Source: Ulva prolifera (Eukaryota; Chlorophyta; Ulvophyceae; Ulvales; Ulvaceae). Taken from it: a stretch of 64,000 bases of DNA. The DNA is taken from the NCBI GenBank assembly GCA_023078555.1, contig CM041196.1:11860985-11924984 (forward strand). Direction: 5' to 3'. A program made the translations under genes and the position numbers. Numbering within the stretch: the stretch's first letter is position 1; every line of letters begins with the position of its first letter. Of this stretch, positions 17,226-49,872 are shown one piece after another. The notes under the pieces were generated by a model. It did no database searches. It saw only the letters and a list, made by a program, of their open reading frames with translations, and was not told where the DNA came from.

Positions 17226-17960
17226 TAGGACACCTTATTATGTTTATATTCACTAGTGGGACGTTATATTTGATGTTATCGATTGCTGTGGAAAGCGTCC
17301 TAGCCGTTGTGACTTGTGGGGTTATGTACTGTCACATGTAGGCAGCTGTTCTGCGCGACTGGAGCGCTATGAAGAATCAATACAAGTGTTGTGCACCCTT
17401 GGGGATGGGTTGTTTGGTCGCTCTGCGGTTGATTGATTCAGCGGCTCTCACCCCATTTCGTTCTGGCGTGTCCAGTACATGGCATGAGTATAAAACAACA
17501 GGCTTCAATAGGCGTGCATGCTTAAATTATGGTACAGTCGGGATAACTTCAACGATACCGACAGCTGTGATGGAGGATGATCAAGCGGCTGTCCACATGA
17601 CGAAGGTCATTGTATTGACACCACATGGATGCAGCTGGCCTGGTTGATACATCTGGCATGTTTGTCATAAATGACAGTATCATGTAGTTGCATGTAGATT
17701 GTATTGCAAGCGATGTCACATCTGAAGGATGCCAGTCAGGTTAAATGCTGATTGCATGGCAGCATTGTGCAAGAGGCAGAAAACCGATGCAGTTGACTGT
17801 ATACTGCTGTGAAAAAGAATGCAAAAGAATATTTACGCGGGAAGAACTCAGCATGCGCTCTACATCACTGTCATGGGATTCTGGACTGCATCAGAGGTGT
17901 AGGAAAGCAAGAATGCCTGACATACAGCCTCTTTGTGTGCTTGCATCTGTGACCTGCCAC
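17226..17960. other. No gene seen; left flank of the array
   Basis: Several short open frames on the plus strand (for example 17369-17647) have no recognisable motif. The last five bases, GCCAC (17956-17960), are repeated right after the array's other end and are the possible target duplication. Confidence 0.4.
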
Positions 17961-18599
17961 CAGTCGGTTCGAATCACATTAGCTGTCCATGCGTCAGCAT
18001 CCATGCATCATGCCGCACGCCGAAACTCCGCTCAATCGCACAGAGCGCAGAAATATTCAGCTCGGCGCGAGATCAGCTGCGATGGATTTCACGGAAATGA
18101 CTGCTGCCTTAGTTGAGATCTGGAGATGCGTCTGTAACTTTTCGCGTAACGAATGAGCGATCAGACAGCATGCGCACGGAGATGAGAGATGAATTGATGG
18201 GATCACGGGAATTGGGGATGCGAGGTGATAAATGTGCCGATTGACAGGACATGAAACACATATGCTGGTGGTGTTGGCAGAGGCTGCACATCCCAGAACC
18301 GACATTGCTGCAGCGCCACAACCGCCTGAAATTATCAGACAAGTGCAGTGGGCGCAATCGTGGCGGGCATGAGTGCCCAGCAGTTTCTTGCTGAGGCTCA
18401 ATAGGCCATTTTGGACCTCACCTTTGGCACAAACACACAAAACATGCCTCAACTTCAAGGCTCCAGCCTTTCACAGTCACAAATCAACCGTATTGGCTGC
18501 CGCTTTTTGCCGCCAGGTGGCCATGTATCTCACACAGTAATCAATCACTCTCTCTCTCAAAGTCGGCCTTCACACGGCTACTGTAATTCAGAGGGACAG
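17961..18599. repeat. 637-bp direct repeat, copy 1 (left end of the array)
   Basis: Carries two extra bases in a CT run (639 bp). Both edges look terminal: CAGTCGG at the left, GGGACAG at the right. A 133-codon minus-strand frame inside (18458-18057) is cysteine-rich and may be spliced, with a good GTGAGG donor and TTTCAG acceptor, but no family was recognised. It does not behave as an LTR: no TG...CA ends, primer-binding site or polypurine tract. Confidence 0.85.
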
Positions 18600-18687
18600 A
18601 AGGCATTTATGTGACCTGCTGAGCCATTGGTGGCGTAGGGGGAACGAGCGTGACGTAACACTAGCGGATGGTAAAAGCAAGAGTCTA

Positions 18688-21600
18688 TCATGACCATTTT
18701 GCCTCCGGAAACTTCCCACCCGAACCCACAACTTCGAAATTTCCATGCCTCCATTCTGTTGGATGCCCTCCCCTGTCTTCGTAGTATCCGGGTGGCAGCA
18801 ACGGCTTGAACTTCTCGCCCGCGTCCGCAGCCACAATCTGCGCGGTGATGTAAAGGCGCCTGGTAGACTTTGTGATAGAACTCTGATTCTTGGGAGGTGC
18901 GCCGTCGTCGCCTGCTTCGTTCCTCTTTTCGCATTCCAAGTGCATGACTTCGTCGTAGCTCTTCGAGAGCAGCAAAGCCTGGGAGTCTGGGGGCTGATCT
19001 AGAGTCCAGGCTCTCGCTACACCTTTATATGTGCCGACCTGCATCTCGGCTGGCTGGTGCAGGTCCGGAGTCGTATTTCCGAGCGGCAGGAACTGCTCGC
19101 CGACCAAGCACAACCATCGCCGGGGGTCGTTGAAGGCCATCTCCCTTCGGAAAACAGCCTCCCATGGTGCGCCATCATCAGCATTTGCAGCTCGGAAGTA
19201 GTCTGCCAGCATGTCGTCGTGAATCGCTTGTGCATGCTTCGTCTGTGCCTGCTTGTACCTTTCGAACTTGACGTCCGTAAGGAATTGAAACTTGGGTGAC
19301 TTGACCGCTCGCTTTCTTGCGCGGCGCAAGGCTTGCAGTTCCGCGTCTGCGTTCTGCCTGCCGTGTGCGTCGCCGGCAGGCAATCTGCGCTTTGCTGCCA
19401 GCAGCTTGTCTTTGTACTTGTCGAAAGATTCAGCCACGCTGGGGATCGTGATTCCCAGCTGCTGCTCGGCGGCAGTCAGGATGGTGCTGTACTCCTCGAT
19501 CGGTGTCACTCGCGGAGTGAGCATCGCGATGGCAGCTCCGTGATGAATCGGGGCATTGTCCTGGCTCAGGCCAAAGGGCACATGAATACTGTGCCATGTG
19601 ATGCTCACTTCGTCTGACATGCAGTCGTAGTACTCCTTGCATTTTTGGTCCCACACCTCTCTTGAGCCTGGGTCGCCCAACTGCATACCGAGCCATCGCT
19701 TGATGCACCACGGCAGCACGTAGAACAGCATCATCATCTTGTACTCTGTTCCGTTGATCGCCCGTGCGATCATGTTGCCTGCTTTCGACTTTGCACTGTT
19801 CTGCAAACACCACTAAGTCTGAGTCTTCAATGCAGGCATCCCAAGATGTATGTGGAGAAAGAGGGAGTCAAGAGTGTAATATGGAGTGCATCACTGAACA
19901 CAGGTAAGGTCCATGCACCTTCTGTGAGCTGTATTGAGTCCAGCTGCCTCTCTGCAGTGTTGCACACAAGCATTGCATACTCAGACTGTTCATGGATGTG
20001 TGCTGTTGACTGCAGCTGCCTCTCTGCAGTGTTGCACCCAAGCATTGCATACTCAGACTGTTCATGGATGTGTGCTGTTGACTGCAGCTGCCTCTCTGCA
20101 GTGTTGCACACAAGCATTGCATACTCAGACTGTTCATGGATGTGTGCTGTTGACTGCAGCTGCCTCTCTGCAGTGTTGCACCCAAGCATTGCATACTCAG
20201 ACTGTTCATGGATGTGTGCTGTTGACTGCAGCTGCCTCTCTGCAGTGTTGCACCCAAGCATTGCATACTCAGACTGTTCATGGATGTGTGCTGTTGACTG
20301 CAGCTGCCTCTCTGCAGTGTTGCACATAAGCATTGCATACTCAGACTGTTCATGGATGTGTGCTGTTGACTGCAGCTGCCTCTCTGCAGTGTTGCACACA
20401 AGCATTGCATACTCAGACTGTTCATGGATGTGTGCTGTTGACTGCAGCTGCCTCTGCAGTGTTGCACCCAAGCATTGCATACTCAGACTGTTCATGGATG
20501 TGTGCTGTTGACTGCAGCTGCCTCTCTGCAGTGTTGCACCCAAGCATTGCATACTCAGACTGTTCATGGATGTGTGCTGTTGACTGCAGCTGCCTCTCTG
20601 CAGTGTTGCACCCAAGCATTGCATACTCAGACTGTTCATGGATGTGTGCTGTTGACTGCAGCTGCCTCTCTGCAGTGTTGCACATAAGCATTGCATACAC
20701 TTCATGGTGTGTGACTTCATTGTGTCTATCACGTGCAGTTGCCACAAGGCCAGTCAAGTCAGGGACGCAGTGCACAAGCTGATAACTAAGACGGTAGTGA
20801 TCACACAGTATACTAGTTGCTCATGTTTGCATGCTCAATGGCGCCGCGGGGTCCCCCCACTGTGTTCATTGCATAGGCCAGGGCATCAGACCACGCAGCA
20901 TGACTGTGTCGTTAGACAAGTTATACAAATAGTGTGCCATGTTGATGTTGATGCAGCCGTTCTGCCCTCCTTCGGCATGAAGGCCCATGGTGTAAGTAAG
21001 AGAGGTGGCCCTGCTTTTCACCTCGATGTATTGTTTGTCTTGTGCAACAGCATGCTTGTAGCTGTGGAAGTGGACGGACGTAGCCACAAAAATGCTCGCA
21101 ACCGAAAGCATGACACTTTGAAAGAGAACAAGCTCAGTCGATGTGGTGTAAGATTGTTTCGAATTGATCTGAGCCAGTCAATACCAGATCAACTGTACGA
21201 GATAGAGCATATGATTAAAGGCCTAGTGTAATTCATACCAGGAAACCCTCATCTGTGAACTTCTGCGGGACAAGCTCACTCTGGTCCACAGGGAAGATCT
21301 TGGCAGCCTCCTGTGGAGAGGCCTTCCTGAATTTCTGGACAGCTTTCTCGCTCGAGCCGTAATGCATCTTCATGATGGCCAGCTTGGTCTCATCATCAAT
21401 CTTGTCTGTCCAACGTTGCAGCCCAGCTTGCACGCTGTCCGCTGCCTTGCTGCCGTTGGCAGCAGTGACCAGAAGGGTCCCTGTCACCGCTGAGGCAAAG
21501 ATGTAGAACATGACTTTTGGGGCCATGCCAACCTGCACCATGGCTGCATCATGAAAACAATGTGTCAACGGTGAGCAGCAGCAGCAGGCAGTGGTGTCAC

Positions 21601-22751
21601 TCACCGTTTTCATCAGTAGGTTGTAGCAGATGGGGGTACGCGCTGCGCCGAGCTGAGTAATGCCCTTCTGAGACTTCACCCATGCTTGAGGATCAACTTT
21701 CCCACCATCCAAGAACACATTCCGTTGTACTTGTTGCCATGTGAAGGTGTACTCGTACGCTGGGTCCATCACCCTCCTGGTGAGGGGGTGGCCCTGGTGG
21801 ATCTTGGGATTGAAGTACATAGGCTCTCTCCCCAGAATACGCCTTGCTGCTTTCCTTGCTTGCCCTGCTTCTCTTGTGCCCTTCACGTTCAGAGCTGTTT
21901 TCTTCAGGCCAGGAAAAGCCGTTCGCAGATTAGACCACAAGGATGCATGTGTCTTGACATTCAAGGCCACCATTGCTTCCTCGATGATTGGGCTGTACTT
22001 GGCTGCCTGCTCCAAGCTCCTGAATGGCAAACACTCAATACCTCCTTCGCTTCTGCCCTCCAGAAGGAATAATCGGACGTTTTGGAGGAGCGGGAAGTGC
22101 TGGCTTGCTTTCTCTCCAGGCTGATGTGGGGGCAGAGGCAGTACTGACCCTGTGGTCACAAGGTGCTTCGCTTGCCTGCAAGCATGGCATTGGCATTGTG
22201 AGGACACCAAGACGCACGCCACCCACGGACACAGTGCACACATACAGAGCGTACGTTGATGCGTGCTTGATCAGGGACGCGCGGTCTCTGACATATTCTG
22301 GCTTGGCTGCCGAGCTGTTGGCAATTTGATCTGATGCACATGGGACTGCGGCACCATCTGGTTGCATGCGTTTCTTGGGTGCATTATGATGCAGGAAGTT
22401 TCTCGCCTTCCGGGCTCTCGCTGATGCTGTGTACGCACTCTCTGAAGTGCGCAGCAGTCTGTTGAGTGCTTCGAAGTTGGCCTCAACTGGGCCGTAGGTC
22501 ACCTTCTCCCCCTCCTCTCGCGTTACAGAACCATCGATACAGAGCTGAACCAAGTTTGCATTACTGAGCGAACGCACGTACTCGAAAGACAGCAACAGCC
22601 TCTGCTCGACGGACAAGCGGAAGTAGCTCCCGCAAGTCCCTGCGGGCAGCGTCACGGGTCAGCAACATGTAGCCGAGCGGATCTGGGTTTGGTTCGAAAT
22701 TATCAATTCTCATATGCACGGAACCGCGGAGTGCTGCATCTCACCTTCCAT
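18688..22751 (-). CDS. DDE-type transposase-like protein, unit 1 (five exons, 789 residues)
   Basis: Exons 22751-22745, 22639-22255, 22175-21605, 21532-21239 and 19800-18688 sum to 790 codons including the stop, with all junctions in phase. The start is ATG GAA G at 22751, a seven-base first exon with donor GTGAGA. Residues suggest an RNase-H-fold transposase: first acid in NVFLDGGKVDPQAWV (exon 3), a following strand-like PKVMFYIFASAVTGTLLV, second acid in LSQDNAPIHHGAA, third in NTTPDLHQPAEMQVGTYK (the place of PDLNPIE in Tc1/mariner relatives). About 170 residues, charged and probably helical, separate the second and third acids, far more than the 34-40 of Tc1/mariner. No known family could be named. 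The last intron (21238-19801) is 1438 nt and contains an antisense nuclease frame and the minisatellite. Family assignment is inference from motifs only. Confidence 0.65.
19846..19903 (+). other. Possible first exon of an antisense transcript toward the nuclease
   Basis: ATG at 19846 opens MYVEKEGVKSVIWSASLNT and ends at a near-consensus plus-strand donor CAG/GTAAGG (19901-19909). The sequence recurs in every unit. An acceptor that would join it in phase to the nuclease frame was not found with confidence (TAG at 20794-20796 or 20930-20932 would keep phase). If real, the minisatellite is intronic on both strands. Confidence 0.35.
19941..20698. repeat. 72-bp minisatellite, unit 1 (ten full repeats plus a part)
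   Basis: Unit: ACTCAGACTGTTCATGGATG... through CTGCAGTGTTGCAC, 72 bp, with a variable dinucleotide (CACA/CACC/CATA) giving the order T,P,T,P,P,I,T,P,P,P,I in one plus-strand reading. One copy lacks two bases (70 bp). Because 72 is a multiple of three, several frames stay open on both strands. It lies inside the last transposase intron. Confidence 0.97.
20704..21231 (+). CDS. PD-(D/E)XK nuclease-fold protein (VSR/DUF559-like), antisense in the transposase intron, unit 1
   Basis: Open frame of 175 codons on the strand opposite the transposase. The C-terminal 75 residues match the VSR/DUF559/DUF2726/RAP class of the PD-(D/E)XK fold: D108 in FHLDVLF, then VAVEVDGRSH (E122, D124, H128), RKHDTLKENKLSRCGVR (D137, K140) and LFRID (R153). 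This is the usual order D...E-x-D-G-x-x-H...D-x-x-K...G-(I/V)-R-x-x-R-I. Known members include mismatch-repair nicking enzymes and uncharacterised endonucleases, so a DNA-cutting role is inferred. The frame stops about 8 bases before the transposase donor, so it is nested in the intron. The N-terminal 80 residues look less protein-like; the true start may be spliced or further downstream. Confidence 0.6.
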   Translation: MVCDFIVSITCSCHKASQVRDAVHKLITKTVVITQYTSCSCLHAQWRRGVPPLCSLHRPGHQTTQHDCVVRQVIQIVCHVDVDAAVLPSFGMKAHGVSKRGGPAFHLDVLFVLCNSMLVAVEVDGRSHKNARNRKHDTLKENKLSRCGVRLFRIDLSQSIPDQLYEIEHMIKGLV

Positions 22752-22917
22752 TCTGGACGTGTGACACCGACCGGCATCACACAGCGCAAGAGTAGTGCTT
22801 TAGATGCATCCAGGCACGATCAGACGGCCACTGGTTCATCACAAAGTATGTACGAGTAGTTGTGACTCGTCCGCATGCCCATTTGAATCCTAAGCGTGCA
22901 GGCCAACTTGGCTCCTT

Positions 22918-23554
22918 CAGTCGGTTCGAATCACATTAGCTGTCCATGCGTCAGCATCCATGCATCATGCCGCACGCCGAAACTCCGCTCAATCGCACAG
23001 AGCGCAGAAATATTCAGCTCGGCGCGAGATCAGCTGCGATGGATTTCACGGAAATGACTGCTGCCTTAGTTGAGATCTGGAGATGCGTCTGTAACTTTTC
23101 GCGTAACGAATGAGCGATCAGACAGCATGCGCACGGAGATGAGAGATGAATTGATGGGATCACGGGAATTGGGGATGCGAGGTGATAAATGTGCCGATTG
23201 ACAGGACATGAAACACATATGCTGGTGGTGTTGGCAGAGGCTGCACATCCCAGAACCGACATTGCTGCAGCGCCACAACCGCCTGAAATTATCAGACAAG
23301 TGCAGTGGGCGCAATCGTGGCGGGCATGAGTGCCCAGCAGTTTCTTGCTGAGGCTCAATAGGCCATTTTGGACCTCACCTTTGGCACAAACACACAAAAC
23401 ATGCCTCAACTTCAAGGCTCCAGCCTTTCACAGTCACAAATCAACCGTATTGGCTGCCGCTTTTTGCCGCCAGGTGGCCATGTATCTCACACAGTAATCA
23501 ATCACTCTCTCTCAAAGTCGGCCTTCACACGGCTACTGTAATTCAGAGGGACAG
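22918..23554. repeat. 637-bp direct repeat, copy 2
   Basis: Internal copy between bodies 1 and 2. It lies about 170 bp upstream of the start of the unit-1 transposase gene, so it may supply that gene's promoter. Confidence 0.85.
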
Positions 23555-23642
23555 AAGGCATTTATGTGACCTGCTGAGCCATTGGTGGCGTAGGGGGAAC
23601 GAGCGTGACGTAACACTAGCGGATGGTAAAAGCAAGAGTCTA

Positions 23643-26600
23643 TCATGACCATTTTGCCTCCGGAAACTTCCCACCCGAACCCACAACTTCGAAATTTCCA
23701 TGCCTCCATTCTGTTGGATGCCCTCCCCTGTCTTCGTAGTATCCGGGTGGCAGCAACGGCTTGAACTTCTCGCCCGCGTCCGCAGCCACAATCTGCGCGG
23801 TGATGTAAAGGCGCCTGGTAGACTTTGTGATAGAACTCTGATTCTTGGGAGGTGCGCCGTCGTCGCCTGCTTCGTTCCTCTTTTCGCATTCCAAGTGCAT
23901 GACTTCGTCGTAGCTCTTCGAGAGCAGCAAAGCCTGGGAGTCTGGGGGCTGATCTAGAGTCCAGGCTCTCGCTACACCTTTATATGTGCCGACCTGCATC
24001 TCGGCTGGCTGGTGCAGGTCCGGAGTCGTATTTCCGAGCGGCAGGAACTGCTCGCCGACCAAGCACAACCATCGCCGGGGGTCGTTGAAGGCCATCTCCC
24101 TTCGGAAAACAGCCTCCCATGGTGCGCCATCATCAGCATTTGCAGCTCGGAAGTAGTCTGCCAGCATGTCGTCGTGAATCGCTTGTGCATGCTTCGTCTG
24201 TGCCTGCTTGTACCTTTCGAACTTGACGTCCGTAAGGAATTGAAACTTGGGTGACTTGACCGCTCGCTTTCTTGCGCGGCGCAAGGCTTGCAGTTCCGCG
24301 TCTGCGTTCTGCCTGCCGTGTGCGTCGCCGGCAGGCAATCTGCGCTTTGCTGCCAGCAGCTTGTCTTTGTACTTGTCGAAAGATTCAGCCACGCTGGGGA
24401 TCGTGATTCCCAGCTGCTGCTCGGCGGCAGTCAGGATGGTGCTGTACTCCTCGATCGGTGTCACTCGCGGAGTGAGCATCGCGATGGCAGCTCCGTGATG
24501 AATCGGGGCATTGTCCTGGCTCAGGCCAAAGGGCACATGAATACTGTGCCATGTGATGCTCACTTCGTCTGACATGCAGTCGTAGTACTCCTTGCATTTT
24601 TGGTCCCACACCTCTCTTGAGCCTGGGTCGCCCAACTGCATACCGAGCCATCGCTTGATGCACCACGGCAGCACGTAGAACAGCATCATCATCTTGTACT
24701 CTGTTCCGTTGATCGCCCGTGCGATCATGTTGCCTGCTTTCGACTTTGCACTGTTCTGCAAACACCACTAAGTCTGAGTCTTCAATGCAGGCATCCCAAG
24801 ATGTATGTGGAGAAAGAGGGAGTCAAGAGTGTAATATGGAGTGCATCACTGAACACAGGTAAGGTCCATGCACCTTCTGTGAGCTGTATTGAGTCCAGCT
24901 GCCTCTCTGCAGTGTTGCACACAAGCATTGCATACTCAGACTGTTCATGGATGTGTGCTGTTGACTGCAGCTGCCTCTCTGCAGTGTTGCACCCAAGCAT
25001 TGCATACTCAGACTGTTCATGGATGTGTGCTGTTGACTGCAGCTGCCTCTCTGCAGTGTTGCACACAAGCATTGCATACTCAGACTGTTCATGGATGTGT
25101 GCTGTTGACTGCAGCTGCCTCTCTGCAGTGTTGCACCCAAGCATTGCATACTCAGACTGTTCATGGATGTGTGCTGTTGACTGCAGCTGCCTCTCTGCAG
25201 TGTTGCACCCAAGCATTGCATACTCAGACTGTTCATGGATGTGTGCTGTTGACTGCAGCTGCCTCTCTGCAGTGTTGCACATAAGCATTGCATACTCAGA
25301 CTGTTCATGGATGTGTGCTGTTGACTGCAGCTGCCTCTCTGCAGTGTTGCACACAAGCATTGCATACTCAGACTGTTCATGGATGTGTGCTGTTGACTGC
25401 AGCTGCCTCTCTGCAGTGTTGCACCCAAGCATTGCATACTCAGACTGTTCATGGATGTGTGCTGTTGACTGCAGCTGCCTCTGCAGTGTTGCACCCAAGC
25501 ATTGCATACTCAGACTGTTCATGGATGTGTGCTGTTGACTGCAGCTGCCTCTCTGCAGTGTTGCACATAAGCATTGCATACTCAGACTGTTCATGGATGT
25601 GTGCTGTTGACTGCAGCTGCCTCTCTGCAGTGTTGCACACAAGCATTGCATACTCAGACTGTTCATGGATGTGTGCTGTTGACTGCAGCTGCCTCTCTGC
25701 AGTGTTGCACATAAGCATTGCATACTCAGACTGTTCATGGATGTGTGCTGTTGACTGCAGCTGCCTCTGCAGTGTTGCACCCAAGCATTGCATACTCAGA
25801 CTGTTCATGGATGTGTGCTGTTGACTGCAGCTGCCTCTCTGCAGTGTTGCACATAAGCATTGCATACTCAGACTGTTCATGGATGTGTGCTGTTGACTGC
25901 AGCTGCCTCTCTGCAGTGTTGCACACAAGCATTGCATACTCAGACTGTTCATGGATGTGTGCTGTTGACTGCAGCTGCCTCTCTGCAGTGTTGCACCCAA
26001 GCATTGCATACTCAGACTGTTCATGGATGTGTGCTGTTGACTGCAGCTGCCTCTCTGCAGTGTTGCACACAAGCATTGCATACTCAGACTGTTCATGGAT
26101 GTGTGCTGTTGACTGCAGCTGCCTCTCTGCAGTGTTGCACCCAAGCATTGCATACTCAGACTGTTCATGGATGTGTGCTGTTGACTGCAGCTGCCTCTCT
26201 GCAGTGTTGCACCCAAGCATTGCATACTCAGACTGTTCATGGATGTGTGCTGTTGACTGCAGCTGCCTCTCTGCAGTGTTGCACATAAGCATTGCATACT
26301 CAGACTGTTCATGGATGTGTGCTGTTGACTGCAGCTGCCTCTCTGCAGTGTTGCACACAAGCATTGCATACTCAGACTGTTCATGGATGTGTGCTGTTGA
26401 CTGCAGCTGCCTCTGCAGTGTTGCACCCAAGCATTGCATACTCAGACTGTTCATGGATGTGTGCTGTTGACTGCAGCTGCCTCTCTGCAGTGTTGCACCC
26501 AAGCATTGCATACTCAGACTGTTCATGGATGTGTGCTGTTGACTGCAGCTGCCTCTCTGCAGTGTTGCACCCAAGCATTGCATACTCAGACTGTTCATGG

Positions 26601-28710
26601 ATGTGTGCTGTTGACTGCAGCTGCCTCTCTGCAGTGTTGCACATAAGCATTGCATACACTTCATGGTGTGTGACTTCATTGTGTCTATCACGTGCAGTTG
26701 CCACAAGGCCAGTCAAGTCAGGGACGCAGTGCACAAGCTGATAACTAAGACGGTAGTGATCACACAGTATACTAGTTGCTCATGTTTGCATGCTCAATGG
26801 CGCCGCGGGGTCCCCCCACTGTGTTCATTGCATAGGCCAGGGCATCAGACCACGCAGCATGACTGTGTCGTTAGACAAGTTATACAAATAGTGTGCCATG
26901 TTGATGTTGATGCAGCCGTTCTGCCCTCCTTCGGCATGAAGGCCCATGGTGTAAGTAAGAGAGGTGGCCCTGCTTTTCACCTCGATGTATTGTTTGTCTT
27001 GTGCAACAGCATGCTTGTAGCTGTGGAAGTGGACGGACGTAGCCACAAAAATGCTCGCAACCGAAAGCATGACACTTTGAAAGAGAACAAGCTCAGTCGA
27101 TGTGGTGTAAGATTGTTTCGAATTGATCTGAGCCAGTCAATACCAGATCAACTGTACGAGATAGAGCATATGATTAAAGGCCTAGTGTAATTCATACCAG
27201 GAAACCCTCATCTGTGAACTTCTGCGGGACAAGCTCACTCTGGTCCACAGGGAAGATCTTGGCAGCCTCCTGTGGAGAGGCCTTCCTGAATTTCTGGACA
27301 GCTTTCTCGCTCGAGCCGTAATGCATCTTCATGATGGCCAGCTTGGTCTCATCATCAATCTTGTCTGTCCAACGTTGCAGCCCAGCTTGCACGCTGTCCG
27401 CTGCCTTGCTGCCGTTGGCAGCAGTGACCAGAAGGGTCCCTGTCACCGCTGAGGCAAAGATGTAGAACATGACTTTTGGGGCCATGCCAACCTGCACCAT
27501 GGCTGCATCATGAAAACAATGTGTCAACGGTGAGCAGCAGCAGCAGGCAGTGGTGTCACTCACCGTTTTCATCAGTAGGTTGTAGCAGATGGGGGTACGC
27601 GCTGCGCCGAGCTGAGTAATGCCCTTCTGAGACTTCACCCATGCTTGAGGATCAACTTTCCCACCATCCAAGAACACATTCCGTTGTACTTGTTGCCATG
27701 TGAAGGTGTACTCGTACGCTGGGTCCATCACCCTCCTGGTGAGGGGGTGGCCCTGGTGGATCTTGGGATTGAAGTACATAGGCTCTCTCCCCAGAATACG
27801 CCTTGCTGCTTTCCTTGCTTGCCCTGCTTCTCTTGTGCCCTTCACGTTCAGAGCTGTTTTCTTCAGGCCAGGAAAAGCCGTTCGCAGATTAGACCACAAG
27901 GATGCATGTGTCTTGACATTCAAGGCCACCATTGCTTCCTCGATGATTGGGCTGTACTTGGCTGCCTGCTCCAAGCTCCTGAATGGCAAACACTCAATAC
28001 CTCCTTCGCTTCTGCCCTCCAGAAGGAATAATCGGACGTTTTGGAGGAGCGGGAAGTGCTGGCTTGCTTTCTCTCCAGGCTGATGTGGGGGCAGAGGCAG
28101 TACTGACCCTGTGGTCACAAGGTGCTTCGCTTGCCTGCAAGCATGGCATTGGCATTGTGAGGACACCAAGACGCACGCCACCCACGGACACAGTGCACAC
28201 ATACAGAGCGTACGTTGATGCGTGCTTGATCAGGGACGCGCGGTCTCTGACATATTCTGGCTTGGCTGCCGAGCTGTTGGCAATTTGATCTGATGCACAT
28301 GGGACTGCGGCACCATCTGGTTGCATGCGTTTCTTGGGTGCATTATGATGCAGGAAGTTTCTCGCCTTCCGGGCTCTCGCTGATGCTGTGTACGCACTCT
28401 CTGAAGTGCGCAGCAGTCTGTTGAGTGCTTCGAAGTTGGCCTCAACTGGGCCGTAGGTCACCTTCTCCCCCTCCTCTCGCGTTACAGAACCATCGATACA
28501 GAGCTGAACCAAGTTTGCATTACTGAGCGAACGCACGTACTCGAAAGACAGCAACAGCCTCTGCTCGACGGACAAGCGGAAGTAGCTCCCGCAAGTCCCT
28601 GCGGGCAGCGTCACGGGTCAGCAACATGTAGCCGAGCGGATCTGGGTTTGGTTCGAAATTATCAATTCTCATATGCACGGAACCGCGGAGTGCTGCATCT
28701 CACCTTCCAT
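23643..28710 (-). CDS. DDE-type transposase-like protein, unit 2
   Basis: Same exon pattern as unit 1, with identical protein as far as could be compared by eye. The last intron is 1004 nt longer because the minisatellite is expanded. Start at 28710, stop at 23643. Confidence 0.65.
24896..26657. repeat. 72-bp minisatellite, unit 2 (24 full repeats plus a part)
   Basis: Fourteen more repeats than units 1, 3 and 5, including two additional 70-bp variants, which exactly accounts for the 1004-bp length difference. The order of variants shows that the run T,P,T,P,P,I,T is present twice, so the growth was by duplication of a block of repeats. Confidence 0.97.
26663..27190 (+). CDS. PD-(D/E)XK nuclease-fold protein, unit 2
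   Basis: Identical 175-codon frame to unit 1, with all fold residues present, nested antisense in the transposase's last intron. Confidence 0.6.
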   Translation: MVCDFIVSITCSCHKASQVRDAVHKLITKTVVITQYTSCSCLHAQWRRGVPPLCSLHRPGHQTTQHDCVVRQVIQIVCHVDVDAAVLPSFGMKAHGVSKRGGPAFHLDVLFVLCNSMLVAVEVDGRSHKNARNRKHDTLKENKLSRCGVRLFRIDLSQSIPDQLYEIEHMIKGLV

Positions 28711-28876
28711 TCTGGACGTGTGACACCGACCGGCATCACACAGCGCAAGAGTAGTGCTTTAGATGCATCCAGGCACGATCAGACGGCCACTGGTTCATCA
28801 CAAAGTATGTACGAGTAGTTGTGACTCGTCCGCATGCCCATTTGAATCCTAAGCGTGCAGGCCAACTTGGCTCCTT

Positions 28877-29513
28877 CAGTCGGTTCGAATCACATTAGCT
28901 GTCCATGCGTCAGCATCCATGCATCATGCCGCACGCCGAAACTCCGCTCAATCGCACAGAGCGCAGAAATATTCAGCTCGGCGCGAGATCAGCTGCGATG
29001 GATTTCACGGAAATGACTGCTGCCTTAGTTGAGATCTGGAGATGCGTCTGTAACTTTTCGCGTAACGAATGAGCGATCAGACAGCATGCGCACGGAGATG
29101 AGAGATGAATTGATGGGATCACGGGAATTGGGGATGCGAGGTGATAAATGTGCCGATTGACAGGACATGAAACACATATGCTGGTGGTGTTGGCAGAGGC
29201 TGCACATCCCAGAACCGACATTGCTGCAGCGCCACAACCGCCTGAAATTATCAGACAAGTGCAGTGGGCGCAATCGTGGCGGGCATGAGTGCCCAGCAGT
29301 TTCTTGCTGAGGCTCAATAGGCCATTTTGGACCTCACCTTTGGCACAAACACACAAAACATGCCTCAACTTCAAGGCTCCAGCCTTTCACAGTCACAAAT
29401 CAACCGTATTGGCTGCCGCTTTTTGCCGCCAGGTGGCCATGTATCTCACACAGTAATCAATCACTCTCTCTCAAAGTCGGCCTTCACACGGCTACTGTAA
29501 TTCAGAGGGACAG
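28877..29513. repeat. 637-bp direct repeat, copy 3
   Basis: Internal copy between bodies 2 and 3; no difference from copy 2 was noticed by eye. Confidence 0.85.
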
Positions 29514-29601
29514 AAGGCATTTATGTGACCTGCTGAGCCATTGGTGGCGTAGGGGGAACGAGCGTGACGTAACACTAGCGGATGGTAAAAGCAAGAGTCT
29601 A

Positions 29602-32600
29602 TCATGACCATTTTGCCTCCGGAAACTTCCCACCCGAACCCACAACTTCGAAATTTCCATGCCTCCATTCTGTTGGATGCCCTCCCCTGTCTTCGTAGTA
29701 TCCGGGTGGCAGCAACGGCTTGAACTTCTCGCCCGCGTCCGCAGCCACAATCTGCGCGGTGATGTAAAGGCGCCTGGTAGACTTTGTGATAGAACTCTGA
29801 TTCTTGGGAGGTGCGCCGTCGTCGCCTGCTTCGTTCCTCTTTTCGCATTCCAAGTGCATGACTTCGTCGTAGCTCTTCGAGAGCAGCAAAGCCTGGGAGT
29901 CTGGGGGCTGATCTAGAGTCCAGGCTCTCGCTACACCTTTATATGTGCCGACCTGCATCTCGGCTGGCTGGTGCAGGTCCGGAGTCGTATTTCCGAGCGG
30001 CAGGAACTGCTCGCCGACCAAGCACAACCATCGCCGGGGGTCGTTGAAGGCCATCTCCCTTCGGAAAACAGCCTCCCATGGTGCGCCATCATCAGCATTT
30101 GCAGCTCGGAAGTAGTCTGCCAGCATGTCGTCGTGAATCGCTTGTGCATGCTTCGTCTGTGCCTGCTTGTACCTTTCGAACTTGACGTCCGTAAGGAATT
30201 GAAACTTGGGTGACTTGACCGCTCGCTTTCTTGCGCGGCGCAAGGCTTGCAGTTCCGCGTCTGCGTTCTGCCTGCCGTGTGCGTCGCCGGCAGGCAATCT
30301 GCGCTTTGCTGCCAGCAGCTTGTCTTTGTACTTGTCGAAAGATTCAGCCACGCTGGGGATCGTGATTCCCAGCTGCTGCTCGGCGGCAGTCAGGATGGTG
30401 CTGTACTCCTCGATCGGTGTCACTCGCGGAGTGAGCATCGCGATGGCAGCTCCGTGATGAATCGGGGCATTGTCCTGGCTCAGGCCAAAGGGCACATGAA
30501 TACTGTGCCATGTGATGCTCACTTCGTCTGACATGCAGTCGTAGTACTCCTTGCATTTTTGGTCCCACACCTCTCTTGAGCCTGGGTCGCCCAACTGCAT
30601 ACCGAGCCATCGCTTGATGCACCACGGCAGCACGTAGAACAGCATCATCATCTTGTACTCTGTTCCGTTGATCGCCCGTGCGATCATGTTGCCTGCTTTC
30701 GACTTTGCACTGTTCTGCAAACACCACTAAGTCTGAGTCTTCAATGCAGGCATCCCAAGATGTATGTGGAGAAAGAGGGAGTCAAGAGTGTAATATGGAG
30801 TGCATCACTGAACACAGGTAAGGTCCATGCACCTTCTGTGAGCTGTATTGAGTCCAGCTGCCTCTCTGCAGTGTTGCACACAAGCATTGCATACTCAGAC
30901 TGTTCATGGATGTGTGCTGTTGACTGCAGCTGCCTCTCTGCAGTGTTGCACCCAAGCATTGCATACTCAGACTGTTCATGGATGTGTGCTGTTGACTGCA
31001 GCTGCCTCTCTGCAGTGTTGCACACAAGCATTGCATACTCAGACTGTTCATGGATGTGTGCTGTTGACTGCAGCTGCCTCTCTGCAGTGTTGCACCCAAG
31101 CATTGCATACTCAGACTGTTCATGGATGTGTGCTGTTGACTGCAGCTGCCTCTCTGCAGTGTTGCACCCAAGCATTGCATACTCAGACTGTTCATGGATG
31201 TGTGCTGTTGACTGCAGCTGCCTCTCTGCAGTGTTGCACATAAGCATTGCATACTCAGACTGTTCATGGATGTGTGCTGTTGACTGCAGCTGCCTCTCTG
31301 CAGTGTTGCACACAAGCATTGCATACTCAGACTGTTCATGGATGTGTGCTGTTGACTGCAGCTGCCTCTGCAGTGTTGCACCCAAGCATTGCATACTCAG
31401 ACTGTTCATGGATGTGTGCTGTTGACTGCAGCTGCCTCTCTGCAGTGTTGCACCCAAGCATTGCATACTCAGACTGTTCATGGATGTGTGCTGTTGACTG
31501 CAGCTGCCTCTCTGCAGTGTTGCACCCAAGCATTGCATACTCAGACTGTTCATGGATGTGTGCTGTTGACTGCAGCTGCCTCTCTGCAGTGTTGCACATA
31601 AGCATTGCATACACTTCATGGTGTGTGACTTCATTGTGTCTATCACGTGCAGTTGCCACAAGGCCAGTCAAGTCAGGGACGCAGTGCACAAGCTGATAAC
31701 TAAGACGGTAGTGATCACACAGTATACTAGTTGCTCATGTTTGCATGCTCAATGGCGCCGCGGGGTCCCCCCACTGTGTTCATTGCATAGGCCAGGGCAT
31801 CAGACCACGCAGCATGACTGTGTCGTTAGACAAGTTATACAAATAGTGTGCCATGTTGATGTTGATGCAGCCGTTCTGCCCTCCTTCGGCATGAAGGCCC
31901 ATGGTGTAAGTAAGAGAGGTGGCCCTGCTTTTCACCTCGATGTATTGTTTGTCTTGTGCAACAGCATGCTTGTAGCTGTGGAAGTGGACGGACGTAGCCA
32001 CAAAAATGCTCGCAACCGAAAGCATGACACTTTGAAAGAGAACAAGCTCAGTCGATGTGGTGTAAGATTGTTTCGAATTGATCTGAGCCAGTCAATACCA
32101 GATCAACTGTACGAGATAGAGCATATGATTAAAGGCCTAGTGTAATTCATACCAGGAAACCCTCATCTGTGAACTTCTGCGGGACAAGCTCACTCTGGTC
32201 CACAGGGAAGATCTTGGCAGCCTCCTGTGGAGAGGCCTTCCTGAATTTCTGGACAGCTTTCTCGCTCGAGCCGTAATGCATCTTCATGATGGCCAGCTTG
32301 GTCTCATCATCAATCTTGTCTGTCCAACGTTGCAGCCCAGCTTGCACGCTGTCCGCTGCCTTGCTGCCGTTGGCAGCAGTGACCAGAAGGGTCCCTGTCA
32401 CCGCTGAGGCAAAGATGTAGAACATGACTTTTGGGGCCATGCCAACCTGCACCATGGCTGCATCATGAAAACAATGTGTCAACGGTGAGCAGCAGCAGCA
32501 GGCAGTGGTGTCACTCACCGTTTTCATCAGTAGGTTGTAGCAGATGGGGGTACGCGCTGCGCCGAGCTGAGTAATGCCCTTCTGAGACTTCACCCATGCT

Positions 32601-33665
32601 TGAGGATCAACTTTCCCACCATCCAAGAACACATTCCGTTGTACTTGTTGCCATGTGAAGGTGTACTCGTACGCTGGGTCCATCACCCTCCTGGTGAGGG
32701 GGTGGCCCTGGTGGATCTTGGGATTGAAGTACATAGGCTCTCTCCCCAGAATACGCCTTGCTGCTTTCCTTGCTTGCCCTGCTTCTCTTGTGCCCTTCAC
32801 GTTCAGAGCTGTTTTCTTCAGGCCAGGAAAAGCCGTTCGCAGATTAGACCACAAGGATGCATGTGTCTTGACATTCAAGGCCACCATTGCTTCCTCGATG
32901 ATTGGGCTGTACTTGGCTGCCTGCTCCAAGCTCCTGAATGGCAAACACTCAATACCTCCTTCGCTTCTGCCCTCCAGAAGGAATAATCGGACGTTTTGGA
33001 GGAGCGGGAAGTGCTGGCTTGCTTTCTCTCCAGGCTGATGTGGGGGCAGAGGCAGTACTGACCCTGTGGTCACAAGGTGCTTCGCTTGCCTGCAAGCATG
33101 GCATTGGCATTGTGAGGACACCAAGACGCACGCCACCCACGGACACAGTGCACACATACAGAGCGTACGTTGATGCGTGCTTGATCAGGGACGCGCGGTC
33201 TCTGACATATTCTGGCTTGGCTGCCGAGCTGTTGGCAATTTGATCTGATGCACATGGGAGTGCGGCACCATCTGGTTGCATGCGTTTCTTGGGTGCATTA
33301 TGATGCAGGAAGTTTCTCGCCTTCCGGGCTCTCGCTGATGCTGTGTACGCACTCTCTGAAGTGCGCAGCAGTCTGTTGAGTGCTTCGAAGTTGGCCTCAA
33401 CTGGGCCGTAGGTCACCTTCTCCCCCTCCTCTCGCGTTACAGAACCATCGATACAGAGCTGAACCAAGTTTGCATTACTGAGCGAACGCACGTACTCGAA
33501 AGACAGCAACAGCCTCTGCTCGACGGACAAGCGGAAGTAGCTCCCGCAAGTCCCTGCGGGCAGCGTCACGGGTCAGCAACATGTAGCCGAGCGGATCTGG
33601 GTTTGGTTCGAAATTATCAATTCTCATATGCACGGAACCGCGGAGTGCTGCATCTCACCTTCCAT
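29602..33665 (-). CDS. DDE-type transposase-like protein, unit 3
   Basis: Same gene structure as unit 1. One substitution changes Val to Leu in exon 2 (DGAALPCASD), a variant shared only with unit 5. All exons are open and in phase. Confidence 0.65.
30855..31612. repeat. 72-bp minisatellite, unit 3
   Basis: Same length and variant order as unit 1 (ten full repeats plus a part, one 70-bp copy). Confidence 0.97.
31618..32145 (+). CDS. PD-(D/E)XK nuclease-fold protein, unit 3
   Basis: Identical 175-codon frame to unit 1, nested antisense in the last transposase intron. Confidence 0.6.
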   Translation: MVCDFIVSITCSCHKASQVRDAVHKLITKTVVITQYTSCSCLHAQWRRGVPPLCSLHRPGHQTTQHDCVVRQVIQIVCHVDVDAAVLPSFGMKAHGVSKRGGPAFHLDVLFVLCNSMLVAVEVDGRSHKNARNRKHDTLKENKLSRCGVRLFRIDLSQSIPDQLYEIEHMIKGLV

Positions 33666-33831
33666 TCTGGACGTGTGACACCGACCGGCATCACACAGCG
33701 CAAGAGTAGTGCTTTAGATGCATCCAGGCACGATCAGACGGCCACTGGTTCATCACAAAGTATGTACGAGTAGTTGTGACTCGTCCGCATGCCCATTTGA
33801 ATCCTAAGCGTGCAGGCCAACTTGGCTCCTT

Positions 33832-34468
33832 CAGTCGGTTCGAATCACATTAGCTGTCCATGCGTCAGCATCCATGCATCATGCCGCACGCCGAAACTCC
33901 GCTCAATCGCACAGAGCGCAGAAATATTCAGCTCGGCGCGAGATCAGCTGCGATGGATTTCACGGAAATGACTGCTGCCTTAGTTGAGATCTGGAGATGC
34001 GTCTGTAACTTTTCGCGTAACGAATGAGCGATCAGACAGCATGCGCACGGAGATGAGAGATGAATTGATGGGATCACGGGAATTGGGGATGCGAGGTGAT
34101 AAATGTGCCGATTGACAGGACATGAAACACATATGCTGGTGGTGTTGGCAGAGGCTGCACATCCCAGAACCGACATTGCTGCAGCGCCACAACCGCCTGA
34201 AATTATCAGACAAGTGCAGTGGGCGCAATCGTGGCGGGCATGAGTGCCCAGCAGTTTCTTGCTGAGGCTCAATAGGCCATTTTGGACCTCACCTTTGGCA
34301 CAAACACACAAAACATGCCTCAACTTCAAGGCTCCAGCCTTTCACAGTCACAAATCAACCGTATTGGCTGCCGCTTTTTGCCGCCAGGTGGCCATGTATC
34401 TCACACAGTAATCAATCACTCTCTCTCAAAGTCGGCCTTCACACGGCTACTGTAATTCAGAGGGACAG
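33832..34468. repeat. 637-bp direct repeat, copy 4
   Basis: Internal copy between bodies 3 and 4. Confidence 0.85.
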
Positions 34469-34556
34469 AAGGCATTTATGTGACCTGCTGAGCCATTGGT
34501 GGCGTAGGGGGAACGAGCGTGACGTAACACTAGCGGATGGTAAAAGCAAGAGTCTA

Positions 34557-37500
34557 TCATGACCATTTTGCCTCCGGAAACTTCCCACCCGAACCCACAA
34601 CTTCGAAATTTCCATGCCTCCATTCTGTTGGATGCCCTCCCCTGTCTTCGTAGTATCCGGGTGGCAGCAACGGCTTGAACTTCTCGCCCGCGTCCGCAGC
34701 CACAATCTGCGCGGTGATGTAAAGGCGCCTGGTAGACTTTGTGATAGAACTCTGATTCTTGGGAGGTGCGCCGTCGTCGCCTGCTTCGTTCCTCTTTTCG
34801 CATTCCAAGTGCATGACTTCGTCGTAGCTCTTCGAGAGCAGCAAAGCCTGGGAGTCTGGGGGCTGATCTAGAGTCCAGGCTCTCGCTACACCTTTATATG
34901 TGCCGACCTGCATCTCGGCTGGCTGGTGCAGGTCCGGAGTCGTATTTCCGAGCGGCAGGAACTGCTCGCCGACCAAGCACAACCATCGCCGGGGGTCGTT
35001 GAAGGCCATCTCCCTTCGGAAAACAGCCTCCCATGGTGCGCCATCATCAGCATTTGCAGCTCGGAAGTAGTCTGCCAGCATGTCGTCGTGAATCGCTTGT
35101 GCATGCTTCGTCTGTGCCTGCTTGTACCTTTCGAACTTGACGTCCGTAAGGAATTGAAACTTGGGTGACTTGACCGCTCGCTTTCTTGCGCGGCGCAAGG
35201 CTTGCAGTTCCGCGTCTGCGTTCTGCCTGCCGTGTGCGTCGCCGGCAGGCAATCTGCGCTTTGCTGCCAGCAGCTTGTCTTTGTACTTGTCGAAAGATTC
35301 AGCCACGCTGGGGATCGTGATTCCCAGCTGCTGCTCGGCGGCAGTCAGGATGGTGCTGTACTCCTCGATCGGTGTCACTCGCGGAGTGAGCATCGCGATG
35401 GCAGCTCCGTGATGAATCGGGGCATTGTCCTGGCTCAGGCCAAAGGGCACATGAATACTGTGCCATGTGATGCTCACTTCGTCTGACATGCAGTCGTAGT
35501 ACTCCTTGCATTTTTGGTCCCACACCTCTCTTGAGCCTGGGTCGCCCAACTGCATACCGAGCCATCGCTTGATGCACCACGGCAGCACGTAGAACAGCAT
35601 CATCATCTTGTACTCTGTTCCGTTGATCGCCCGTGCGATCATGTTGCCTGCTTTCGACTTTGCACTGTTCTGCAAACACCACTAAGTCTGAGTCTTCAAT
35701 GCAGGCATCCCAAGATGTATGTGGAGAAAGAGGGAGTCAAGAGTGTAATATGGAGTGCATCACTGAACACAGGTAAGGTCCATGCACCTTCTGTGAGCTG
35801 TATTTAGTCCAGCTGCCTCTCTGCAGTGTTGCACACAAGCATTGCATACTCAGACTGTTCATGGATGTGTGCTGTTGACTGCAGCTGCCTCTCTGCAGTG
35901 TTGCACCCAAGCATTGCATACTCAGACTGTTCATGGATGTGTGCTGTTGACTGCAGCTGCCTCTCTGCAGTGTTGCACACAAGCATTGCATACTCAGACT
36001 GTTCATGGATGTGTGCTGTTGACTGCAGCTGCCTCTCTGCAGTGTTGCACCCAAGCATTGCATACTCAGACTGTTCATGGATGTGTGCTGTTGACTGCAG
36101 CTGCCTCTCTGCAGTGTTGCACCCAAGCATTGCATACTCAGACTGTTCATGGATGTGTGCTGTTGACTGCAGCTGCCTCTCTGCAGTGTTGCACATAAGC
36201 ATTGCATACTCAGACTGTTCATGGATGTGTGCTGTTGACTGCAGCTGCCTCTCTGCAGTGTTGCACACAAGCATTGCATACTCAGACTGTTCATGGATGT
36301 GTGCTGTTGACTGCAGCTGCCTCTGCAGTGTTGCACCCAAGCATTGCATACTCAGACTGTTCATGGATGTGTGCTGTTGACTGCAGCTGCCTCTCTGCAG
36401 TGTTGCACTGCAGGCCCTGCTTTTCACCTCGATGTATTGTTTGTCTTGTGCAACAGCATGCTTGTAGCTGTGGAAGTGGACGGACGTAGCCACAAAAATG
36501 CTCGCAACCGAAAGCATGACACTTTGAAAGAGAACAAGCTCAGTCGATGTGGTGTAAGATTGTTTCGAATTGATCTGAGCCAGTCAATACCAGATCAACT
36601 GTACGAGATAGAGCATATGATTAAAGGCCTAGTGTAATTCATACCAGGAAACCCTCATCTGTGAACTTCTGCGGGACAAGCTCACTCTGGTCCACAGGGA
36701 AGATCTTGGCAGCCTCCTGTGGAGAGGCCTTCCTGAATTTCTGGACAGCTTTCTCGCTCGAGCCGTAATGCATCTTCATGATGGCCAGCTTGGTCTCATC
36801 ATCAATCTTGTCTGTCCAACGTTGCAGCCCAGCTTGCACGCTGTCCGCTGCCTTGCTGCCGTTGGCAGCAGTGACCAGAAGGGTCCCTGTCACCGCTGAG
36901 GCAAAGATGTAGAACATGACTTTTGGGGCCATGCCAACCTGCACCATGGCTGCATCATGAAAACAATGTGTCAACGGTGAGCAGCAGCAGCAGGCAGTGG
37001 TGTCACTCACCGTTTTCATCAGTAGGTTGTAGCAGATGGGGGTACGCGCTGCGCCGAGCTGAGTAATGCCCTTCTGAGACTTCACCCATGCTTGAGGATC
37101 AACTTTCCCACCATCCAAGAACACATTCCGTTGTACTTGTTGCCATGTGAAGGTGTACTCGTACGCTGGGTCCATCACCCTCCTGGTGAGGGGGTGGCCC
37201 TGGTGGATCTTGGGATTGAAGTACATAGGCTCTCTCCCCAGAATACGCCTTGCTGCTTTCCTTGCTTGCCCTGCTTCTCTTGTGCCCTTCACGTTCAGAG
37301 CTGTTTTCTTCAGGCCAGGAAAAGCCGTTCGCAGATTAGACCACAAGGATGCATGTGTCTTGACATTCAAGGCCACCATTGCTTCCTCGATGATTGGGCT
37401 GTACTTGGCTGCCTGCTCCAAGCTCCTGAATGGCAAACACTCAATACCTCCTTCGCTTCTGCCCTCCAGAAGGAATAATCGGACGTTTTGGAGGAGCGGG

Positions 37501-38157
37501 AAGTGCTGGCTTGCTTTCTCTCCAGGCTGATGTGGGGGCAGAGGCAGTACTGACCCTGTGGTCACAAGGTGCTTCGCTTGCCTGCAAGCATGGCATTGGC
37601 ATTGTGAGGACACCAAGACGCACGCCACCCACGGACACAGTGCACACATACAGAGCGTACGTTGATGCGTGCTTGATCAGGGACGCGCGGTCTCTGACAT
37701 ATTCTGGCTTGGCTGCCGAGCTGTTGGCAATTTGATCTGATGCACATGGGACTGCGGCACCATCTGGTTGCATGCGTTTCTTGGGTGCATTATGATGCAG
37801 GAAGTTTCTCGCCTTCCGGGCTCTCGCTGATGCTGTGTACGCACTCTCTGAAGTGCGCAGCAGTCTGTTGAGTGCTTCGAAGTTGGCCTCAACTGGGCCG
37901 TAGGTCACCTTCTCCCCCTCCTCTCGCGTTACAGAACCATCGATACAGAGCTGAACCAAGTTTGCATTACTGAGCGAACGCACGTACTCGAAAGTCAGCA
38001 ACAGCCTCTGCTCGACGGACAAGCGGAAGTAGCTCCCGCAAGTCCCTGCGGGCAGCGTCACGGGTCAGCAACATGTAGCCGAGCGGATCTGGGTTTGGTT
38101 CGAAATTATCAATTCTCATATGCACGGAACCGCGGAGTGCTGCATCTCACCTTCCAT
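34557..38157 (-). CDS. DDE-type transposase-like protein, unit 4 (short last intron)
   Basis: All five exons and splice sites are kept; one substitution gives Thr for Ser in exon 2 (RLLLTFEYV). A 463-bp deletion lies entirely inside the last intron, so the transposase remains intact while the nested nuclease is cut. This supports treating the minisatellite and nuclease as intronic rather than as transposase coding sequence. Confidence 0.65.
35810..36408. repeat. 72-bp minisatellite, unit 4 (truncated)
   Basis: Eight full repeats, then the array breaks off after GTTGCAC and runs into the nuclease frame. The last three units seen in other copies are missing. Confidence 0.95.
36413..36637 (+). 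pseudogene. PD-(D/E)XK nuclease, unit 4: N-terminally deleted
   Basis: Only the nuclease-fold core from PAFHLDVLF to the stop is kept. The deletion joins it in frame to the minisatellite (QCCTAGPAFHLD). All predicted catalytic residues remain, so activity is possible if it is translated, but its normal upstream region is gone. Confidence 0.65.
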
Positions 38158-38323
38158 TCTGGACGTGTGACACCGACCGGCATCACACAGCGCAAGAGTA
38201 GTGCTTTAGATGCATCCAGGCACGATCAGACGGCCACTGGTTCATCACAAAGTATGTACGAGTAGTTGTGACTCGTCCGCATGCCCATTTGAATCCTAAG
38301 CGTGCAGGCCAACTTGGCTCCTT

Positions 38324-38960
38324 CAGTCGGTTCGAATCACATTAGCTGTCCATGCGTCAGCATCCATGCATCATGCCGCACGCCGAAACTCCGCTCAATC
38401 GCACAGAGCGCAGAAATATTCAGCTCGGCGCGAGATCAGCTGCGATGGATTTCACGGAAATGACTGCTGCCTTAGTTGAGATCTGGAGATGCGTCTGTAA
38501 CTTTTCGCGTAACGAATGAGCGATCAGACAGCATGCGCACGGAGATGAGAGATGAATTGATGGGATCACGGGAATTGGGGATGCGAGGTGATAAATGTGC
38601 CGATTGACAGGACATGAAACACATATGCTGGTGGTGTTGGCAGAGGCTGCACATCCCAGAACCGACATTGCTGCAGCGCCACAACCGCCTGAAATTATCA
38701 GACAAGTGCAGTGGGCGCAATCGTGGCGGGCATGAGTGCCCAGCAGTTTCTTGCTGAGGCTCAATAGGCCATTTTGGACCTCACCTTTGGCACAAACACA
38801 CAAAACATGCCTCAACTTCAAGGCTCCAGCCTTTCACAGTCACAAATCAACCGTATTGGCTGCCGCTTTTTGCCGCCAGGTGGCCATGTATCTCACACAG
38901 TAATCAATCACTCTCTCTCAAAGTCGGCCTTCACACGGCTACTGTAATTCAGAGGGACAG
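38324..38960. repeat. 637-bp direct repeat, copy 5
   Basis: Internal copy between bodies 4 and 5. Confidence 0.85.
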
Positions 38961-39048
38961 AAGGCATTTATGTGACCTGCTGAGCCATTGGTGGCGTAGG
39001 GGGAACGAGCGTGACGTAACACTAGCGGATGGTAAAAGCAAGAGTCTA

Positions 39049-43112: not shown

Positions 43113-43278
43113 TCTGGACGTGTGACACCGACCGGCATCACACAGCGCAAGAGTAGTGCTTTAGATGCATCCAGGCACGATCAGACGGCCACTGGTTCAT
43201 CACAAAGTATGTACGAGTAGTTGTGACTCGTCCGCATGCCCATTTGAATCCTAAGCGTGCAGGCCAACTTGGCTCCTT

Positions 43279-43915: not shown

Positions 43916-43919
43916 CCAC

Positions 43920-45109: not shown

Positions 45110-45114
45110 GGCTT

Positions 45115-45534
45115 TGTGGGAAGCAGAGCTCCCCTGGTGCAAGCGTGTCGTAGCTGTGATAACGCGAGTGCAGCAGATCACATGCATTTGGCTGTGAGTC
45201 TGCGGGCAGACCGTAGGTCGGCTGTCCAGTGCACAGAATATAGGACGTAGCTGTCAATTCCAGGTCATCTTTGACTGGCAATTGACAGGTGAGAATGCTT
45301 TGCTGTCTGTGTGTGTCTGTCGTCTGACAATAGCAGAGATCAGTGTGCTGAGCGTACTACGTGGTGCAGGAGTCTGTACTGTATGACTAGTGATCATAGC
45401 AGCTAACAGAGCTCATATTGCCACAGGTGAGACACACGGCATAGTTATTCTGTAATATCTTTGACTGGCAATTGACAGGAGTCTGTACTGTATGACTAGT
45501 GATCATAGCAGCTAACAGAGCTCATATTGCCACA
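45115..45534 (+). repeat. Left LTR of the copia element
   Basis: 420 bp, identical in length to the right LTR. It contains two internal direct duplications: CTTTGACTGGCAATTGACAG twice, and a block of about 55 bp beginning AGTCTGTACTGTATGACTAG twice. Confidence 0.95.
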
Positions 45535-49865: not shown

Positions 49866-49872
49866 GGGGGTG

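Follow-up and report, generated by a model that had tools for sequence, protein, structure and literature searches.

The window examined here is the whole stretch of 64,000 nucleotides taken from contig CM041196.1 of the green alga Ulva prolifera (assembly GCA_023078555.1, positions 11,860,985 to 11,924,984, forward strand), and the question it raises is what kind of mobile unit carries a five-exon transposase-like gene together with a nuclease gene that lies antisense in its last intron. A sequence-only reading had proposed either a two-enzyme mobile system or a nuclease parasite of a transposon. The analysis was extended to the 88.9-Mb assembly of 44 contigs, in which loci were named W (the window), L041 to L047 and L052, or by their positions on C1 to C9. 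With 38 matches to the light-harvesting protein family PF00504, the assembly is that of a photosynthetic eukaryote. The explanation that we favor, with a probability of roughly 0.68, is a composite-like DNA transposon, in which a body of two genes, for a putative DDE transposase and a nuclease that would provoke recombination, lies between near-identical direct repeats. The long terminal direct repeat is called R, and the body is the two-gene stretch between R copies.

In the window, five bodies and six R copies are arranged head to tail over positions 17961 to 43915, and the same four bases flank this array on both sides:

17957..17960, left 4-bp target site duplication of the array, CCAC
17961..43915, plus strand, whole array, (R-body)5-R
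17961..18599, plus strand, R copy 1, 639 bp, CAGTCGG...GGGACAG, with imperfect inverted ends
22918..23554, plus strand, R copy 2
28877..29513, plus strand, R copy 3
33832..34468, plus strand, R copy 4
38324..38960, plus strand, R copy 5
43279..43915, plus strand, R copy 6, right end of the array
43916..43919, right 4-bp target site duplication of the array, CCAC

Four types of R were compared, with lengths of 639 bp (W), 670 bp (L042), 670-673 bp (L043) and 687-689 bp (L046). All of them have C as their first and G as their last base (CA or CT on the left, AG or TG on the right), and their ends are inverted with respect to each other, with 18, 23, 19 and 20 matches out of 30 for W, L042, L046 and L043. 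As many matches were reached by 3 of 20000 shuffles for W and by none of 20000 for each of the other three types. Target site duplications of 4 bp were present at 22 of the 23 outer borders compared, the sole miss being L043, where only three bases are duplicated; L020 and L029, in which the left end of R is cut off, and L041, in which one R is truncated, were omitted from this count. Among elements of the W type, the duplications are CCAC (array), ATGT (the copy on C2) and AATC (the copy on C1), and at solo R copies of this type they are AAAA, CCAA, ATAA, GTTT, GAAG, TAAA, GCAC and ACAC. The remaining ones are GTGA (L042), ATAT (L046), TCGC (C1:670k), GCTC (C9), CTTC (an R-R dimer), and GACC, ACTG, TCTC, ACGG, TGGC and CCCC at six further solo R copies.

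The two R copies of an element are closely alike in several cases, with 0 differences in the C1 element, 670 of 670 positions identical in L042, 689 of 689 in L046 and 99.7% in L043. Between the C1 copies and those of the array and C2 there are, by contrast, 10-12 base differences. Two bases distinguish the members of the C2 pair, and since one of these members equals inner array copies, this pair is not a show of homogenization. The flanks of the C2 element (L008, C2:5490000-5499999) are satellite-like, with a 12-base match that recurs mostly every 167-169 bases or at double that spacing. Solo copies of R are frequent. Of the 131 candidates of the L042 type, 40 were scored; two of these 40 make up the L042 pair, one belongs to L041, and no pair among the remaining ones is closer than 10 kb. 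For the W type, 40 of 127 candidates were scored, and for the L046 type all 36, with 39 matches. At L052 (C1:4345300-4346830) two R copies are directly joined with CTG common at the joint, an outer duplication of CTTC and no body, so that this locus represents either a dimer or a product of joined ends. The junctions of body and R are constant in W, L042, L043 and L046, the body starting with AA behind the left R and ending with CCTT ahead of the right R, although the L042, L043 and L046 proteins are only ~26-37% identical to that of the window.

Repeat pairs of this kind also call for a comparison with retroelements. A non-autonomous long terminal repeat (LTR) retroelement, with R as its LTR, solo R copies as solo LTRs and a reverse transcriptase supplied from elsewhere, would fit the near-identical pairs, the solo repeats and the 4-bp duplications, and, as judged by eye, W, L042, L043 and L046 all have TT ahead of the right R and AA behind the left R. 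However, no reverse transcriptase, RNase H or Gag family of Pfam was matched by the main frames of the W, L041 and L046 bodies, as distinct from every small frame; R starts with C and ends with G instead of TG..CA; inspection by eye found no primer-binding site or polypurine tract next to R; and one of the genes retains four introns. The ends of R are moreover inverted over ~30 bp, which according to the consulted part of the description of KolobokP, a family of animal transposons, is not a property of LTRs (PMC9587614). Because of the scanned frames, the C...G ends, the introns and the inverted ends, the retroelement explanation is highly improbable and was rejected.

The larger gene of the body lies on the minus strand. 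In the first unit of the array its parts are:

22745..22751, minus strand, exon 1, 7 nucleotides, ATGGAAG
22255..22639, minus strand, exon 2
21605..22175, minus strand, exon 3, with candidate first catalytic residue Asp287 (codon begins at 21709)
21239..21532, minus strand, exon 4
19801..21238, minus strand, last intron, 1438 nucleotides, GT..AG, holding the antisense nuclease gene and a minisatellite
19934..20698, 72-bp minisatellite, 10.7 copies, between the nuclease gene and exon 5
18688..19800, minus strand, exon 5 with the stop codon, with candidates Asp500 (codon begins at 19560) and Glu671 (codon begins at 19047)

The joined exons give 790 codons with a single terminal stop, as the sequence-only reading had predicted. 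All seven close copies examined (the five array units, one on C2 and one on C1) yield a full protein, of 790 codons in six cases and 786 in one. The paralogue L041, with a protein identity of 36%, gives 819 amino acids when joined from the same five exons, and the 7-nucleotide first exon ATGGA[AC]G is common to W, L041, L042 and L043, with ATGGACG in the last three and, at the donor, ATGGACG|GT in L041 versus ATGGAAG|GT in the window; the splice model is therefore supported by evolution. In L042 and L043 the junctions are as in W, with exon 3 broken in both and a stop in exon 4 of L043. An alternative donor 9 nucleotides further on would give 793 codons, and the comparison with paralogues favors the 790-codon version. 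A single unspliced frame through exons 3-5 was sought and was not found. The minisatellite of the last intron has a unit that differs by lineage, with 72 bp in the window, 153 bp in L041 and L042, and 131 bp in L043, while L046 has a unit of ~317 bp in an earlier part of the gene; in the second array unit (24889-26657) it has 24.7 copies, compared to 8.3-10.7 in the others.

The identification of this product as a transposase, which had been proposed from the letters alone, is upheld as probable by its motifs, the element ends and the target duplications, and it has no counterpart in Pfam, to which the five-exon product gave no match. PDB sequence searches returned nothing credible, a full-length search (query A1) that scored 7998 candidates had no protein reaching E 0.001, and the patterns tried on viral and prokaryote contigs turned up no relatives of the transposase. 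The gene is a candidate DDE lineage absent from Pfam. Between W and the C1 copy, exon 5 has 5 nonsynonymous differences and 1 synonymous difference, so that this pair shows no recent constraint on the transposase.

The second gene is read from the plus strand within the last intron, as had been claimed, and its positions in the five units are as follows:

20704..21231, plus strand, nuclease gene of unit 1 with stop TAA (frame open from 20656)
20821..20904, plus strand, Cys/His N-terminal part of the nuclease
21019, 21061 and 21112, plus strand, starts of HLDVL, AVEVDGRSH and DTLKENK in the nuclease
26663..27190, plus strand, nuclease gene of unit 2, intact
31618..32145, plus strand, nuclease gene of unit 3, intact
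36413..36637, plus strand, nuclease remnant of unit 4, last 74 codons and stop
41065..41592, plus strand, nuclease gene of unit 5, intact

The gene had been said to be copied in every unit. Unit 4 lacks its first 101 codons, so that the statement holds for an intact gene in four of the five units. The stop codon had been placed just inside the donor, and it ends 7 nucleotides from the first intron base in the window and 16-20 nucleotides from it in L041, L042 and L043. No stop interrupts the frame from 20704 to 21228, while the other five frames of the same stretch carry 4-14, and in dinucleotide shuffles of the intron part a plus-strand open frame of that length never arose, with 2000 trials each for the window, L041 and L043. 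Between L041 and L043, the ratio of nonsynonymous to synonymous substitution rates (dN/dS) amounts to 0.34 in the nuclease and 0.20 in exon 5, and the nuclease differences fall on codon positions 1, 2 and 3 in the numbers 60, 57 and 94. W and the C1 copy differ in the nuclease by 2 nonsynonymous and 3 synonymous changes. Judging by these substitutions, the nuclease is under purifying selection, and a chance open frame was rejected on the shuffles, the dN/dS and the codon-position bias.

The sequence-only reading had suggested a VSR/DUF559-like nuclease. In the profile search, the window protein matched Pfam DUF2726 with E 1e-8 and 35.4 bits, compared to the Pfam cut-off of 24.7. With E values up to 1 allowed, DUF2726 was matched by three and MTES_1575 by all of the four nuclease members searched. 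The L046 protein, at 18.5 bits, lies under the DUF2726 cut-off. The protein is probably a PD-(D/E)XK nuclease of the DUF2726/MTES_1575 kind. It is larger than the 75-residue domain originally assumed, as ~175 residues including the Cys/His-rich N-terminal part are conserved. Common to four nuclease sequences are C, W, C, H, H and D together with AVEVDGxSH, and the alignment with L042 and L046 added has 18 invariant columns. A further protein, P0002, is 57% identical to the nuclease over 86% of the 191-aa frame. P0002 and the transposase relative P0007 probably share one contig, because for both of them the longest contig measures 3789 bases. One viral contig gave a single nuclease match, of 50 residues.

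The nested arrangement was sought in the rest of the genome, as the sequence-only reading had suggested for related genomes. It is present in W, L041 to L044, three copies of the L046 type and two decayed copies on C6. At C5:8.86M, C3:6.45M, C4:6.54M and C1:10.68M, the last of which is decayed, relatives carry the nuclease opposite the transposase strand between exons 4 and 5. The remote lineage, represented by L046 at C5:8.81M with copies on C9 and C1, has a transposase only ~26-30% identical, and in the same intron it has an antisense frame with VAVEVQGNNH and DHEK that is open in all three copies; the motif residues are altered, and in L046 itself the frame extends into the antisense of exon 4. 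The two decayed copies of this lineage on C6 retain the order exon 4, antisense nuclease, exon 5. A fragment at C4:6902767 and L047 hold transposase pieces with no nuclease match. L047 (C3:3845500-3852000) is a sister-family fragment beside a copia-like frame, with exon 5 52-69% identical and R ~80%, and its stretch before exon 5 is another element.

These data bear on the idea of a selfish homing nuclease that sits in the intron of a transposon and serves only itself. Homing genes are often found in introns, and in the fold comparison of the nuclease the top row was a homing endonuclease (VC1899, Can2 and Card1 score similarly, at 7.1-7.7). However, the nuclease stood antisense beside transposase exons at all 16 places (11 matches to the window nuclease and 5 places of the L046 nuclease), and searches with these two nucleases never found it apart from the elements in this genome. 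It also occupies the same intron across lineages with ~26-37% transposase identity, and for this reason it looks inherited rather than moving. Of the original pair of proposals, a mobile element whose two genes both handle DNA still stands, as does the conserved nesting; the parasite, kept as a rival, is clearly unlikely.

For the composite-like transposon we take a KolobokP-style mechanism, by analogy, as the most likely. The five-exon gene would encode a DDE transposase acting on the ends of any R, so that R alone, R-body-R and longer arrays could all move, with joining at a 4-bp stagger. The nuclease, with a putative Vsr/homing-endonuclease-like fold, would cut within R or where R ends are joined, thereby provoking recombination between R copies by gene conversion, unequal crossing-over and circle formation. 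Such recombination could keep the R copies of an element alike, lengthen arrays and restore full elements from solo R. The nesting would bind both genes into one body, with overlapping transcripts if both are transcribed. The likeness of the two R copies within several elements is observed directly; that the nuclease causes it is what we infer.

The solo R copies and arrays could also be read in terms of a TnsA-like nuclease. In Tn7, TnsA cuts the non-transferred strand, which allows the DDE enzyme TnsB to make simple insertions; without such a nuclease, replicative cointegrates would result. On this model a solo R would be a simple insertion and R-body-R a cointegrate of a circular R-body, comparable to the translocatable units of IS26. 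TnsA was not the top row of the fold comparison, no TnsC, TnsD or TnsE partner was seen, and the element, unlike Tn7, has long direct repeats at its ends. We consider this model unlikely, and return to the composite-like transposon below.

Two further features lie elsewhere in the window. Next to the array, a near-intact Ty1/copia-type LTR retrotransposon at 45110-50167 has repeats of at least 300 bp that are 4758 bp apart, and its two frames, named from their translation, are Gag-like with CCHC (45694-46842) and of the integrase/reverse transcriptase kind (46674-49865). A perfect 196-nucleotide inverted repeat (50846-51041 and 58330-58525), with 7.3 kb between its arms and an adjoining 40-base C-rich tract at 58528, is possibly a DNA transposon.

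The sequence-only reading knew of no described family with such a layout, and here it must be corrected, as KolobokP of animals is comparable in the parts of its description that we consulted (Kojima and Bao 2022, PMC9587614). There, a transposase and a small nuclease on the complementary strand lie between long terminal direct repeats (LTDRs) of ~450 or 660 bp, each with its own short inverted ends of 11-18 bp, in the order LTDR-INT-LTDR; solo LTDRs, (LTDR-INT)n-LTDR arrays and target duplications of 3-5 bp are reported (PMC9587614). The termini are 5'-RR...YY-3', the nuclease is a His-Me finger enzyme described as downstream, and the transposase has C/DxxH between the second D and E, followed by a zinc finger, and a CCHC zinc finger after the first D (PMC9587614). 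These repeats are presented as setting KolobokP apart from other DNA transposons (PMC9587614).

By that partial account, the Ulva element resembles KolobokP in its paired direct repeats of comparable length (639-689 bp, with the L042, L043 and L046 pairs 99.7-100% alike), in the inverted ends of each R, although these are imperfect and were counted over 30 bases, in its solo R copies and one array with 4-bp duplications, and in the nuclease on the complementary strand. It differs in the ends of R (CA/CT...AG/TG, not RR...YY) and, with the proviso that both points depend on the triad assignment and were judged by eye, in having no C/DxxH with a zinc finger among the invariant columns of 23 aligned sequences and no CCHC finger after the first D in two full-length proteins. 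Its nuclease is of the PD-(D/E)XK type (DUF2726/MTES_1575) and not His-Me, and it is nested in the last transposase intron, an arrangement that goes unmentioned for KolobokP in the text consulted; the host is a photosynthetic eukaryote and not an animal, and the intron carries a minisatellite. A true KolobokP member with a swapped nuclease would agree in architecture, repeat length and duplication length. Since the termini, the C/DxxH motif, the zinc fingers and the nuclease fold all differ in this way, we regard such membership as very unlikely and do not file the element as KolobokP, though it is built like it. We take the element to be a variant on the KolobokP plan, probably with an independent origin. 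No algal or PD-(D/E)XK version of the layout appeared among the open-licence papers listed by the searches.

The nuclease itself departs from DUF2726/MTES_1575/DUF559, VRR_NUC, Vsr and the Vsr-like homing endonuclease I-Bth0305I in its Cys/His-rich N-terminal part and in being carried by a eukaryotic transposon. In the transposase, DNAPxH and TPDLHQxxE resemble the IS630-Tc1-mariner motifs DNAxxH and PDLxxxE at the second D and E. That superfamily has the target duplication TA, unlike the variable 4-bp duplication here, and no Pfam profile matched. With LTR retrotransposons and the pseudo-composite arrays of IS26, the element has in common terminal direct repeats, solo repeats and (repeat-body)n-repeat arrays; it differs from the former in having no reverse transcriptase in the frames scanned and no primer site by eye, and from the latter in that the transposase lies in the body and not in the repeat.

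On balance we lean slightly towards the view that a transposase lineage unrelated to Kolobok reached the composite-like architecture independently, recruiting a homing-type nuclease of the PD-(D/E)XK fold that lies antisense within an intron, and the element offers a conserved case of an antisense gene within an intron of a transposase gene. If so, convergence would mean that a partner nuclease makes DNA transposons with paired repeats viable. With a second lineage, in a photosynthetic eukaryote and distinct in its transposase features and nuclease fold, the architecture would become a recurrent strategy, in which the features common to both systems (paired repeats, arrays and a small nuclease on the opposite strand) are likely needed and those that differ are not.

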